From: a virus
Virus record (IMG/VR): IMGVR_UViG_3300007541_000228
Span: 1-23,121 of that record
Length of the DNA stretch: 23,121 nt
Direction: 5' to 3' (one strand)
Shown here: positions 1,833 to 20,509 of the stretch, piece by piece
Position numbering within the stretch: the first letter of the stretch is position 1
Layout of the letters: each line of letters begins with the position of its first letter
Position numbers and translations under genes: made by a program
Notes under the pieces: model-generated
The model's input: the letters and a program-made list of their open reading frames with translations, nothing else
Databases searched by the model: none
Told to the model about the DNA's origin: nothing

Positions 1833-2081
1833 TCAGAAGTCGAACACGTCGCTATTGAGTTGGATGACATTTACAGCGGGGTCATCAAACCTTACACCAT
1901 CAAGAGTTTGAGTCATAAACTCACTGATAGATTCCACGAAATCTTCATAAGAACCTGCCTCGCAAGCAAGGTTATGCAGACCCTCATCATTCTGAATCCA
2001 GAGTGCAACGTTCCAGGTCTCATAATTCGCCCAACCGTTATAGGAAGTGTCGAGGGCATTGTGTTGGAAAGTGGTAGTCAT
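1833..2081 (-). CDS. NGWANYETWNVALWI-type conserved protein (82 aa)
   Basis: The N-terminal third contains YNGWANYETWNVALWIQNDE, a motif I know from a widespread family of small bacterial, archaeal and phage proteins of unknown function. The family members are usually 70-120 residues, so this copy is full length. It is acidic overall. The start is the first ATG (2081); no Shine-Dalgarno is visible, as for many genes here. It heads the minus-strand group that ends at 1046. Confidence 0.8.
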   Translation of the reverse strand: MTTTFQHNALDTSYNGWANYETWNVALWIQNDEGLHNLACEAGSYEDFVESISEFMTQTLDGVRFDDPAVNVIQLNSDVFDF

Positions 2082-11068: not shown

Positions 11069-11105
11069 TCACACCCTAGAGGCAATCTCAAAGTTAGCTA
11101 TTTTT
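11069..11105 (-). repeat. Dispersed intergenic element, copy 12
   Basis: Intact core, end GCCTCTAGGGTGTGAGG. The 159-aa membrane protein ends inside it (S-K-N-S then TAA). It precedes the ArdA-like gene. Confidence 0.95.
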
Positions 11106-12355: not shown

Positions 12356-12391
12356 TTACACCATAGAGGCAATCTCAAAGTTAGCTATTTT
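12356..12391 (-). repeat. Dispersed intergenic element, copy 14
   Basis: Intact core, end GCCTCTATGGTGTAAGA. The NUMOD-type gene takes its TAG stop from the core. It precedes the 33-aa and 56-aa genes. Confidence 0.95.
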
Positions 12392-12891
12392 AATTCACTA
12401 GATACTTTTTCAACAGATTTAATATCTTTGTATTTGTTTCTTTTTCCTGAAAGGAACCGATACAATCCCCTATCACTGTATCCATTCTTCTTACACCATT
12501 CAACAATTCCAAATACATACTCAATTCTTCCATCAATAAAAGTGACTACATAATATCTTTTCCTTGAATTTATTACATTAGGATTTCCTTTCATTCCTTT
12601 TGATACATTTTCTCCATGATGTTTTGGTTTTGGTATTCTTGCAATCTTTTTCATATGCTCTAGCATTTTACCATCATATTTTAATCCCCTATTCCAAGCA
12701 ATATGTCCTTTTTGGGATTCACTCATTTTTTTCTTTGTTTCTTCACTAAAGGTGATACCTCTCATACCTTTATTCCAAGGAGAAATATTTGGTTTGTGAA
12801 AAACTTCAATATCAGTTGAATCTACAGTAATATATGTTGGACCATCTATGTTGAAAAACTTATTCAACGACTGAACGTTAATTTCTTGCAT
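12385..12891 (-). CDS. NUMOD-type DNA-binding protein, probable remnant of a homing endonuclease (168 aa)
   Basis: A NUMOD3-like motif is visible (PWNKGMRGITFSEETKKKMS, then a second partial NRGLK). A C-terminal helix-turn-helix-like module FGIVEWCKKNGYSDRGLYRF then LSGKRNKYKDI resembles the NUMOD1/IENR1 regions of phage homing endonucleases. I see no GIY-YIG or HNH catalytic motif, so the nuclease domain is missing or highly diverged. Start 12891 (MQEINVQSLN) has AAGAG 8 nt upstream and follows a late promoter. The first ATG (12915) lies only 3 nt past that promoter and cannot have a leader. The stop TAG is from repeat copy 14. Expression control is described for 12899-12980. Confidence 0.75.
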   Translation of the reverse strand: MQEINVQSLNKFFNIDGPTYITVDSTDIEVFHKPNISPWNKGMRGITFSEETKKKMSESQKGHIAWNRGLKYDGKMLEHMKKIARIPKPKHHGENVSKGMKGNPNVINSRKRYYVVTFIDGRIEYVFGIVEWCKKNGYSDRGLYRFLSGKRNKYKDIKSVEKVSSELK

Positions 12892-12918
12892 TACTGCTCT
12901 TAAATTGACTCGCATTAT

Positions 12919-12926
12919 TATTTATA
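12919..12926 (-). promoter_or_regulatory. Late promoter TATAAATA (perfect octamer)
   Basis: Minus strand TATAAATA matches the T4-type late consensus exactly. The start would fall near 12913, giving a leader of about 22 nt to ATG 12891. Confidence 0.8.
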
Positions 12927-12933
12927 ATAAAAG

Positions 12934-12953
12934 GGAGGAGATTTCTCTCCTCC
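12934..12953 (-). terminator. Rho-independent terminator with GAAA tetraloop
   Basis: GGAGGAGA, loop GAAA, TCTCCTCC then CTTTTATT on the minus strand. It ends the four-gene operon 13646-12991 and insulates the late-transcribed gene downstream. Confidence 0.9.
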
Positions 12954-12990
12954 AACCTTAAATGGTGCGAGTCAGTTAAGGCACTATTAT

Positions 12991-13125
12991 TTATTTGCGA
13001 TAAACATTGCTGTAAGAACGCCAAAAACGACGGAAAGCAACCACAGTAATGAGTAGCGCCGAACTAATGCCAACAAGACCAAGGAAGGTGGTAGCATCGC
13101 CAGTAAAATTGTAAGTTTCAATCAT
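12991..13125 (-). CDS. Small membrane protein (44 aa)
   Basis: The protein starts MIETYNFTGDATTFLGLVGI and continues SSALLITVVAFRRFWRSYSN. One transmembrane helix (about residues 12-31) is followed by a basic, aromatic tail, which suggests N-out/C-in orientation. It overlaps the upstream gene by ATGA. Last gene before the terminator. Likely host-membrane insertion; unknown role. Confidence 0.7.
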   Translation of the reverse strand: MIETYNFTGDATTFLGLVGISSALLITVVAFRRFWRSYSNVYRK

Positions 13126-18568: not shown

Positions 18569-18750
18569 AAGGGCAACTCTCCTACAGATTTTCCTTTTTT
18601 ATCTTTTGCAATAAAATTTCGGGCAGATTGCTCTGTCCGACATAGTTTTATCTGCTGACCCTTATGCAAGATAATATACTGCTGCCCGTAAGGAACAGCA
18701 GCATAAACATTAGGATCGTTCCATTTTCCGACTAGAAATCCTTCACTCAT
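18565..18750 (-). CDS. Small basic protein (61 aa)
   Basis: The protein starts MSEGFLVGKWNDPNVYAAVP and contains YGQQYIILHKGQQIKLCRTE. It is probably a small beta-barrel-like domain with a helical end (QSARNFIAKD). It is linked by ATGA overlaps to the GIY-YIG gene before it and the 173-aa gene after it. Not recognised. Confidence 0.7.
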   Translation of the reverse strand: MSEGFLVGKWNDPNVYAAVPYGQQYIILHKGQQIKLCRTEQSARNFIAKDKKGKSVGELPL

Positions 18751-19232
18751 TTGTTTTTCTTTCTCAAGTAGTTTCTCCTTCTTTTTTCTCTATACTTTTC
18801 AGGGTTTTTTGCGTATCTCGTTCTCTCCGCCAATCTACGAGACTCCCTATTTTCATCTAACCACTTTTTGGAGGCGGCATTACACTTTTCTTTATTATTC
18901 TCATAATACTTTTTTACTGCTATTTTTCGTCTTTCTTTTCGTTCTTCTTCAGTGTAAATTGCTCTGGTTCTTCCACCTTCACATAGGTTAATGAGAATAC
19001 CTCCATCCTTTTCCTTTCCATAGTGAAAAATCAAATACTCTTCGTGCCTGTATGCTAAATCCTCATCATAAAATCTTTTTAGTATAAGTATTCTATTATT
19101 ATCTGTTGGAACAGGAACTGCATTATTTCCTCTTCTCTTATGTTTAGTGTATGCTCGGTTTCCTGTTCCTTTACCGACATAGTAGGGTGTTCCATCTTCA
19201 CGCAAGTATGCGTAAGTGTAGTATTCTTTCAT
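18747..19232 (-). CDS. GIY-YIG homing endonuclease (161 aa)
   Basis: The N-terminal domain has YAYLREDGTPYYVGKGTGNR: the Y-x-Y and Y-V-G-K-G signature (residues 5-22) with R26, and a catalytic glutamate candidate in YRHEEYLIFHYG (E64/E65). After ~residue 85 the chain is a very basic helical region (KKYYENNKEKCNAASKKWLD ... EKYREKRRRNYLRKKNK) suited to DNA binding. It is free-standing, not in an intron. Late promoter plus RBS-sequestering inverted repeat (19234-19308) lie upstream. The helicase gene next door is a plausible target in phages lacking it. Confidence 0.85.
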   Translation of the reverse strand: MKEYYTYAYLREDGTPYYVGKGTGNRAYTKHKRRGNNAVPVPTDNNRILILKRFYDEDLAYRHEEYLIFHYGKEKDGGILINLCEGGRTRAIYTEEERKERRKIAVKKYYENNKEKCNAASKKWLDENRESRRLAERTRYAKNPEKYREKRRRNYLRKKNK

Positions 19233-19233
19233 C

Positions 19234-19308
19234 GTAGGTCTTGGCGAGACTATTATTATTTATACCATAAAAGTGGGACTTACGCAACTACATTCCGCCA
19301 AGACCTAC
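19234..19308 (-). promoter_or_regulatory. Inverted repeat enclosing a late promoter before the GIY-YIG gene
   Basis: GTAGGTCTTGGCG (minus 19308-19296) and CGCCAAGACCTAC (19246-19234) are exact complements. The 3' arm ends 1 nt before ATG 19232, so it covers the ribosome-binding region. The 49-nt loop contains TATAAATA (19264-19257). Read-through RNA from the helicase operon would fold and block the start; late RNA lacks the 5' arm. Confidence 0.8.
19257..19264 (-). promoter_or_regulatory. Late promoter TATAAATA (perfect octamer)
   Basis: Exact T4-type late octamer on the minus strand, 24 nt before ATG 19232, inside the loop of the inverted repeat. Confidence 0.8.
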
Positions 19309-19327
19309 AGTTGCTGCCCACATTTAT

Positions 19328-20509
19328 CTATCGCTTTACAACAGAAATAGCAGGTTCACCTTTGTGGAAGATAGTATCAACAACTGCCTGAACCTTCTTA
19401 GACGTGGAAATACCTACGCGGTCATAGACAGGCACACAAACAAGTCCAAACGTCTTCTGAGAGTCTCCTAGGCGGATTACACGCCCAATACTTTGGGAGA
19501 TTCCAATGTAATCCATAGAGCGCATAAACAATACTGCCTCAAGTCCACTCACATTGATACCCTCAGATAGAATAGAGTGGTGAAGAACCACAAACTTCTT
19601 GGAAGAATCCTTGCCCCAAGCGTTGAGAGTATCAAAGAATTGCTCTCGATTGACCTTCTGACCATCAATGATTGCACCAGTCTTAGATGTAATCGTCATC
19701 CAAGAATAACCACGCTTCTTGAGTTCTTTGCAGAAATCGGACTGAGAAATAAGACCGATAATCTGCTTTGTGTTGCGAGCACAAATCAGAACCTTATCGA
19801 CTTTGTTGTCTTCAATCGTTTCCAGAAGATTTGCAGAGTCACGATCAGCAATCATCTGCTTATCTTGTACCATCTCCAGTTGCTTCACAACAACTTTAGG
19901 GGGCAGGATGTAACCTTGCTCCACAAGAAGAGGAGCAGGAACATTACAAATCACCTGACCATAAACCTCAGGAAGATTCATCCCAGGTTTGGAAATAGTA
20001 GCAGAGTGCTTAGGAGTAGCAGTGAAGAAATAGCAGCGGTCAGCATCAGCAGAGAAATGCTCTGTGGGACCAAAAAAGTTCTTTTGGACTGAATTGTGCG
20101 CCTCATCGAAGTAAATGGTATGAACGTCAATTTGTGCCTGTTCCAGGCGCTTCAGGGAGTGATATGTGGTGAAAATGAGTTGCTTTCGGTATGCTTGTGC
20201 AGACCAGTTATGAAGCACAGAAGCATTAGTGGTGCTGAAATGATGAGTTTCACCGCTGTGGCAGTGGGCAACAGCAACATCATCAATATGCTCAAGAAAC
20301 TCAGAGCAAAGTTGCTCAGCAAGCAGAATACGAGGAGCAACAACTACGATGATAGTTTTGTAACCATCAAGGGTCTCAAAAGTATTGATGGCATCTTTAA
20401 TCATACACATAGTTTTGCCGCCGCCAGTTGGTACAATTACTTGCCCTTTGGAATGAACAAGCATTGCATCAGTAGCAGTCTGTTGATGGGGACGAAGAGT
20501 AATAGTCAA
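19328..20509 (-). CDS. SF2 DEAH-box helicase (393 aa)
   Basis: Motifs in order: Q-like LRPHQQTA (5-12), Walker A PTGGGKT (27-33), Walker B/DEAH in YFDEAHNS (135-138), motif III TATP (163-166) and motif VI QSIGRVIRLG (339-348). This is a complete superfamily 2 core resembling the helicases of type I/III restriction and UvsW-like phage enzymes. The start is TTG 20509 because it is the only start that keeps the LRPHQ motif. It likely acts in phage DNA replication, recombination or repair. Preceded by repeat copy 20 and a weaker sigma70-type promoter. Confidence 0.85.
   Translation of the reverse strand: MTITLRPHQQTATDAMLVHSKGQVIVPTGGGKTMCMIKDAINTFETLDGYKTIIVVVAPRILLAEQLCSEFLEHIDDVAVAHCHSGETHHFSTTNASVLHNWSAQAYRKQLIFTTYHSLKRLEQAQIDVHTIYFDEAHNSVQKNFFGPTEHFSADADRCYFFTATPKHSATISKPGMNLPEVYGQVICNVPAPLLVEQGYILPPKVVVKQLEMVQDKQMIADRDSANLLETIEDNKVDKVLICARNTKQIIGLISQSDFCKELKKRGYSWMTITSKTGAIIDGQKVNREQFFDTLNAWGKDSSKKFVVLHHSILSEGINVSGLEAVLFMRSMDYIGISQSIGRVIRLGDSQKTFGLVCVPVYDRVGISTSKKVQAVVDTIFHKGEPAISVVKR

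Follow-up and report, generated by a model that had tools for sequence, protein, structure and literature searches.

RNA structure over the start region controls a number of phage homing endonuclease genes, among them I-TevI, I-TevII, I-TevIII and segB of T4 and mobE of Aeh1, with I-TevI and Aeh1 mobE as the experimentally established precedents (PMC2988022, PMC3014915). The three I-Tev genes lie in introns, and there a simple hairpin closes the endonuclease start in read-through RNA and buries a consensus Shine-Dalgarno sequence about 8 nt before the AUG, while RNA from an internal late promoter omits the 5' arm; the I-TevI hairpin is short, and its 5' arm includes AATAAATA. Aeh1 mobE and T4 segB are free-standing homing endonuclease genes with RNA structure over the start (PMC2988022), but each is a single case, and the reviews describe neither a leader shared among unrelated nucleases nor a crossing helix. 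In cyanomyoviruses, NATAAATA is the late promoter, and both early and late promoters are found ahead of a single gene (PMC2984593). Cyanophage S-PM2 in addition has CfrI, an RNA of about 225 nt antisense to a homing endonuclease gene and psbA (PMC2984593). We found no description of cyanophage leaders of the kind reported here in the literature searched, in which coverage of subscription journals is incomplete.

The locus in question lies in the window, that is, the whole stretch of 23,121 nt analysed here, which is a fragment of a cyanomyovirus; all window features named below are on its minus strand. Its uvsW-like helicase gene (19328..20509; ResIII, DEAD and Helicase_C; phrog_16, DNA helicase, 3.7e-62) shares about 64-73% nucleotide identity with the genes annotated as 'helicase' or UvsW of many Synechococcus phages. 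Six bases past the end of this gene (19328) begins a leader of about 90 nt, which runs to the ATG (19232-19230) of a putative free-standing GIY-YIG endonuclease gene (18747..19232, 161 aa), so that the helicase gene stands immediately 5' of the leader and is the supposed origin of the read-through RNA. T4 segE is likewise a GIY-YIG gene beside uvsW, but it stands outside the hairpin-regulated genes in the same account (PMC2988022). The original prediction had taken the product for a GIY-YIG protein, and its relatives bear this out: the motifs with the conserved Arg, Glu and Asn are present, Y5-Y7, Y17-Y18, G20, R26, E64 and N82 being invariant among 24 relatives, and 17 of these 24 match LEM-3_GIY-YIG in Pfam (best 2.1e-4). 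Taken by itself, the window protein matches no Pfam family, and a sequence search of solved structures gave nothing useful; it does match the homing endonuclease family phrog_314 (1.1e-4), and its structure model (mean pLDDT 77.6) gives weak matches, the top four of which include the UvrC GIY-YIG domain and UPF0213 (E 0.3-0.5). Elsewhere in the window a recombination endonuclease VII-like gene (PF02945, 17619-18008) overlaps an N6/N4 DNA methyltransferase gene (PF01555, 16766-17626). An element of about 40 nt, AAAATAGCTAACTTTGAGATTGCCNCTANGGTGTAAGG, is present in about 19 intergenic copies, each just 5' of a gene, uvsW included (copies start near, for example, 2367, 2650, 3539, 6008, 6927, 8053, 8507, 9052, 9619 and 10216, and further ones near 11097, 12054, 12384, 13687, 14274, 15422, 16759, 18035 and 20607); these copies resemble a common leader or promoter element of a regulon.

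The leader had been predicted to contain a perfect 13-bp inverted repeat with a late promoter octamer between its arms, and both are exact. The 5' arm GTAGGTCTTGGCG (19296..19308) and the 3' arm CGCCAAGACCTAC (19234..19246), which ends at 19234 one base short of the ATG, lie 49 nt apart and can pair in a helix designated S2; the octamer TATAAATA (19257..19264, ATAAATA core at 19263-19257) predicts a transcript start near 19251. No second copy of an S2 arm with up to 2 mismatches is present elsewhere in the window. ATAAATA is not rare there by itself (7 found, 5.2 expected), and a perfect 13-bp inverted repeat of any sequence within 60 nt arose in 4 of 200 dinucleotide shuffles of the window; these shuffles and the covariation in 67 leaders described below rule out a chance repeat. 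The proposed likeness to I-TevI does not extend to the ribosome-binding site, since the window leader has no Shine-Dalgarno sequence (AGACCTACGATG contains none) where the I-Tev genes have a buried one.

A search of IMG/VR proteins with the window endonuclease yielded 55 loci, and DNA-pattern searches with the leader yielded 58 and 27 further stretches that overlap this set in part. Nearly all complete loci among the 55 have the leader plan in common, with arms that differ in sequence and stay complementary. The leader mostly starts 3-11 nt past the stop of the upstream gene, and in 64 of 64 leaders of class A, the class to which that of the window belongs, a TAAATA element stands between the arms, 19-27 nt from the ATG. 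Comparison of these leaders, from which the place of the late element and the pairing of S2 are likewise established, shows a second helix, S1, formed by a 5' strand GTGGG-CA-GCAAC (19310..19321) and a 3' strand GTTGC-GTAAGT-CCCAC (19273..19288), that is, GGGCA...GTAAGTCCC, 19321-19310 with 19288-19273. S1 encloses the 5' arm of S2. Because this arm sits in its loop the two helices cross, which can be read as a pseudoknot or as an either/or switch; nested folding, in which S1 and S2 cannot coexist, does not distinguish exchange from a pseudoknot holding both, which seems geometrically possible.

Across 67 aligned leaders, pairing in S1 and S2 is found in 90.8% of cells as compared to 73.1% after shuffling, and drops to 31-47% if the partner strand is displaced by 1-3 columns. 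Double-sided changes occupy 228 cells as opposed to 74.6 in shuffles, a number reached by 0 of 500 shuffles, and affect 18 of 23 pairs overall (12 of 13 in S2, 4 of 5 in the inner stem of S1), although the 67 rows are kin, so that these counts exceed the number of independent events. The arm types GTAGGTCTTGGCG, GTATGTCTGGGG, GTAGTTAGGGGTA and TTGCGGGGG cannot be explained as one inherited change. Moreover, arms bind their own partners with a mean of -25.5 kcal/mol, as opposed to -11.8 kcal/mol for arms exchanged among dissimilar leaders. The arms are thus kept as pairs and not as sequence, being free to diversify provided that pairing holds, in contrast to the late element and to S1 with its internal loop, which are retained. 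Within S1, conservation is higher in the internal loop than in the stems, and GTAAG and the CC that follows it are invariant in the 67 leaders. A third pairing, of TGCGTAAGT (19278-19286) with codons 6-8 (19209-19217), was not supported, since just some of the GIY-YIG leaders have it and it is tied to TYA codons.

The original prediction held that read-through RNA closes the start and that late RNA, lacking the 5' arm, leaves it open. Folding supports this: the start region has an average probability of being unpaired of 0.315 in read-through RNA versus 0.675 in late RNA, the latter being the more open in 64 of 64 leaders. The plain hairpin on which the prediction was built does not stand, as S1 crosses it. 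When nested folding is applied to the growing window transcript, S1 (0.96-0.98) prevails until the second arm emerges and is then replaced by S2 (1.0), the two being mutually exclusive in such folding. We suggest, at a probability of roughly three in four, that the leader is a portable device by which read-through RNA is silenced via S2 whereas internally started RNA is translated. When a polymerase coming from the preceding gene (uvsW in the window) crosses the leader, S1 would fold first; once the second arm emerges, S2 would join the 5' arm to the 13 nt that immediately precede the ATG, whether by displacing S1 or by forming a pseudoknot with it, and would shut the ribosome entry site, leaving the read-through RNA silent. 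Internally started RNA, from the late element and probably from a sigma70-type promoter too, would begin just before the second arm, could form no S2 and would be translated, and endonuclease expression would thus be independent of where the cassette lands. Transcript starts, folding in the cell and the effect on translation are the steps that we infer. Since the upstream gene varies (uvsW-like in 29 of 62 leaders, other genes in the rest), silencing of read-through RNA is the function that would fit all cases.

But is the gene switched off early and on only from its late promoter, in the strict manner that the original prediction derived from I-TevI? All leaders have the late element, some (L010, L034, L035 and L039) have no sigma70-type promoter, and leaders of a second class, class B, carry by eye late elements only, all of which would agree with such a switch. 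Then again, 44 of 68 class A leaders, that of the window included, contain an extended -10 sigma70-type promoter that overlaps or just precedes the late element. In the window this putative promoter (19259..19287) consists of TTGCGT (19287-19282), a 17-nt spacer ending in TGG and the -10 sequence TATAAA (19264-19259); the general layout is a TTGCGT/TTGACG-like sequence on the 3' strand of S1, a spacer of 16-18 nt (17 in 42 of the 44) and TGn-TATAAT or a sequence one base off. RNA from this promoter would likewise be without the 5' arm and escape silencing, and for this reason late-only expression is not supported. TATAAT and the late element are separate in several leaders (L006, L009, L116 and L119), and therefore both are kept independently. 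A strictly late gene is in our view doubtful, though it still deserves to be taken seriously.

The leader of a second endonuclease gene in the window belongs to class B and is a sister design that follows the same logic. The NUMOD3-containing homing-endonuclease-like gene behind it (12385..12891) starts at 12891 and not at 12915, the start of the longest ORF. Its leader comprises an upstream late element TAAATA (12988..12993), a hairpin GCCTTAA...TTAAGGT (12955..12982) with the 5' arm TGACTCGCA (12974-12966) in its loop, a terminator-like hairpin GGAGGAGA/TCTCCTCC (12934..12953) followed by CTTTTA, an inner late element TATAAATA (12919..12926) and a 3' arm TGCGAGTCA (12906..12914) followed by AAGAG (12901-12897); AAGAG or a similar sequence precedes the ATG in class B leaders. 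In a set of 26 class B leaders, picked by their paired arms, TAAATA lies 7-14 nt before the arm in 26 of 26 (background 0.8% per 26-nt stretch), and every one contains the inner hairpin, in most cases accompanied by a T run. When promoter-hairpin-terminator units were searched for separately, with no requirement for paired arms, 33 units followed by a second TAAATA were found, and 30 of them have an ORF behind, in all cases GIY-YIG, HNH or NUMOD-like by eye. S1 is less certain in class B than in class A: its stems measure 5.2 bp on average with their own partners as compared to 3.8 bp when swapped, and the column-wise covariation count is modest because the arms shift in the alignment.

Since a promoter placed directly before a terminator is most readily understood as a small RNA gene, a small antisense RNA has to be considered as well. 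Transcription entering the leader would then stop after the 5' arm, and the RNA so released, which presents the anti-arm in a hairpin loop, would also silence the mRNA in trans. This would explain why the anti-arm is placed in a loop, and the upstream TAAATA, the inner hairpins and the 33 units of class B, 30 of them before nuclease-like ORFs by eye, are all in its favour. However, the promoter-hairpin-terminator unit would function in cis too, class A has no strong terminator, and an upstream TAAATA is present in just 14 of 63 class A leaders. The class A S1 was itself considered as an intrinsic terminator and is a weak one, its T run amounting to just 4-5 or so in 10 nt. A further point against is that there is a single credible orphan unit, L153 (about 1889-1960, plus strand), and on this count orphan class B units were also rejected as immunity elements. 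This unit has a late element, an anti-arm hairpin and a terminator and lacks an inner promoter and a nuclease gene; it may be a relic, or else a small RNA gene in its own right. Like CfrI, class B would link an RNA to a cyanophage homing endonuclease gene, but the RNA would be short, from the same strand and with the anti-arm in a loop. On balance we consider release of an antisense RNA unlikely, and are a shade more sceptical of the broader proposal that cyanophage homing endonucleases are under small antisense RNAs, RNAs of about 60 nt from a late promoter whose loop is complementary to the start and which silence in trans, co-infecting phage included. If this were true, the diversified arms would define compatibility groups among endonucleases.

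A weakness of silencing of read-through RNA by S2 is that under a simple sequestering model the conserved S1 is superfluous, which counts against what is otherwise our best explanation. The invariant internal loop of S1 likeliest reflects contact with a protein or a small molecule, or a role in the order of folding. Accommodating the first of these, S1 might act as a sensor, a protein or metabolite on the GGGCA/GTAAGT internal loop stabilising S1, blocking S2 and thereby turning read-through RNA on. The mutual exclusion of S1 and S2 in nested folding would suit a sensor, as would the conservation of the loop beyond that of the stems even in leaders without the sigma70-type promoter. Yet no ligand is known, class B is without the loop and a search of the leader against Rfam gave no family match at or above the gathering score, so that a sensor is improbable to us; a known riboswitch or ribozyme identity was rejected for want of any Rfam match. 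Nor is S1 kept merely as host of the promoter -35 region, as leaders without the sigma70-type promoter retain it. An S1-like hairpin (GGGCAATCAAG...CTTGATGTAAGACCC) whose loop contains no arm adjoins a tRNA-like gene in another stretch (L134, 7981-8013, minus strand); by our estimate it is near chance expectation for that pattern.

The genes behind the leader are of several kinds. Besides GIY-YIG genes it precedes HNH genes (L115 and L116, by Pfam), a gene for a NUMOD3 protein with an HNH-like start (L110) and, as judged by eye, genes of Endonuclease-VII/HNH-like (L094, L120), AP2/HNH-like (L058) and PD-(D/E)XK-like type (L069, L075; phrog_5018 in both). Arms may be identical across these kinds: GTAAGTCTTGGCG stands before a GIY-YIG gene (L009) and before the HNH-like gene of L058, and GTAGGTCTTGGCG before the window GIY-YIG gene and the phrog_5018 gene of L075. 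Among isolates, S-SRM01, Sf-CH5 and RB11-B have the leader, and RB11-B has two copies, one directly behind a gene that matches the window helicase and bears the annotation type III restriction enzyme. The exact S1 pattern had 0 matches in contigs of bacterial and archaeal genomes. In the complete genome of S-SRM01, nearly all sites at which TAAATA with paired flanks of at least 10 bases stands before an ORF precede nuclease-like genes, and paired arms around a late promoter are therefore a signature of this gene class. An Endonuclease VII/HNH-like gene of this phage (L171, 7343; S-SRM01, 126144) has a 20-bp inverted repeat tight around two overlapping late elements, which is a third, simple version of the design with arms around the late element. 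It is highly improbable that the leader acts at the DNA level, as an operator bound by the encoded nuclease or as the terminal repeats of a mobile element, for although I-TevI binds an operator over its own late promoter in autorepression (PMC2988022) and the leader recurs behind different genes alongside nuclease genes, identical arms before unrelated nucleases, which also disfavour a nuclease operator or homing site in the arms, different arms before related ones, the asymmetry of S1 (2 versus 6 unpaired nt) and the position of the second arm, fixed to the ATG and not to the gene end, all speak against it.

Taken together, the leader appears to be a portable module of cyanophage homing-endonuclease genes, found before GIY-YIG, HNH, NUMOD3 and PD-(D/E)XK-like genes. 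It would work like the I-TevI switch in that structure closes the endonuclease start in read-through RNA and an internal late promoter omits the 5' arm. It differs from the I-Tev leaders in serving a free-standing gene, in having its promoter between the arms, in the additional conserved helix that crosses S2 and in the overlapping sigma70-type promoter. A covariance model of the cyanophage leader found no match in T4. Common descent of the two leaders is not evident, and we regard the cyanophage leader as a new modular variant.

Hairpin control of phage homing endonucleases was previously described for a handful of genes of T4-type phages. What is new here is one leader with two crossing helices and built-in promoters that is common to unrelated nucleases across many cyanophages, its arms covarying freely. 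The leader can be tested as an RNA switch and is a candidate for a new RNA family; it also serves as a marker for homing endonucleases in phage genomes, and silencing of read-through RNA combined with internal starts would explain how a selfish gene behind varied phage genes keeps its own expression program.
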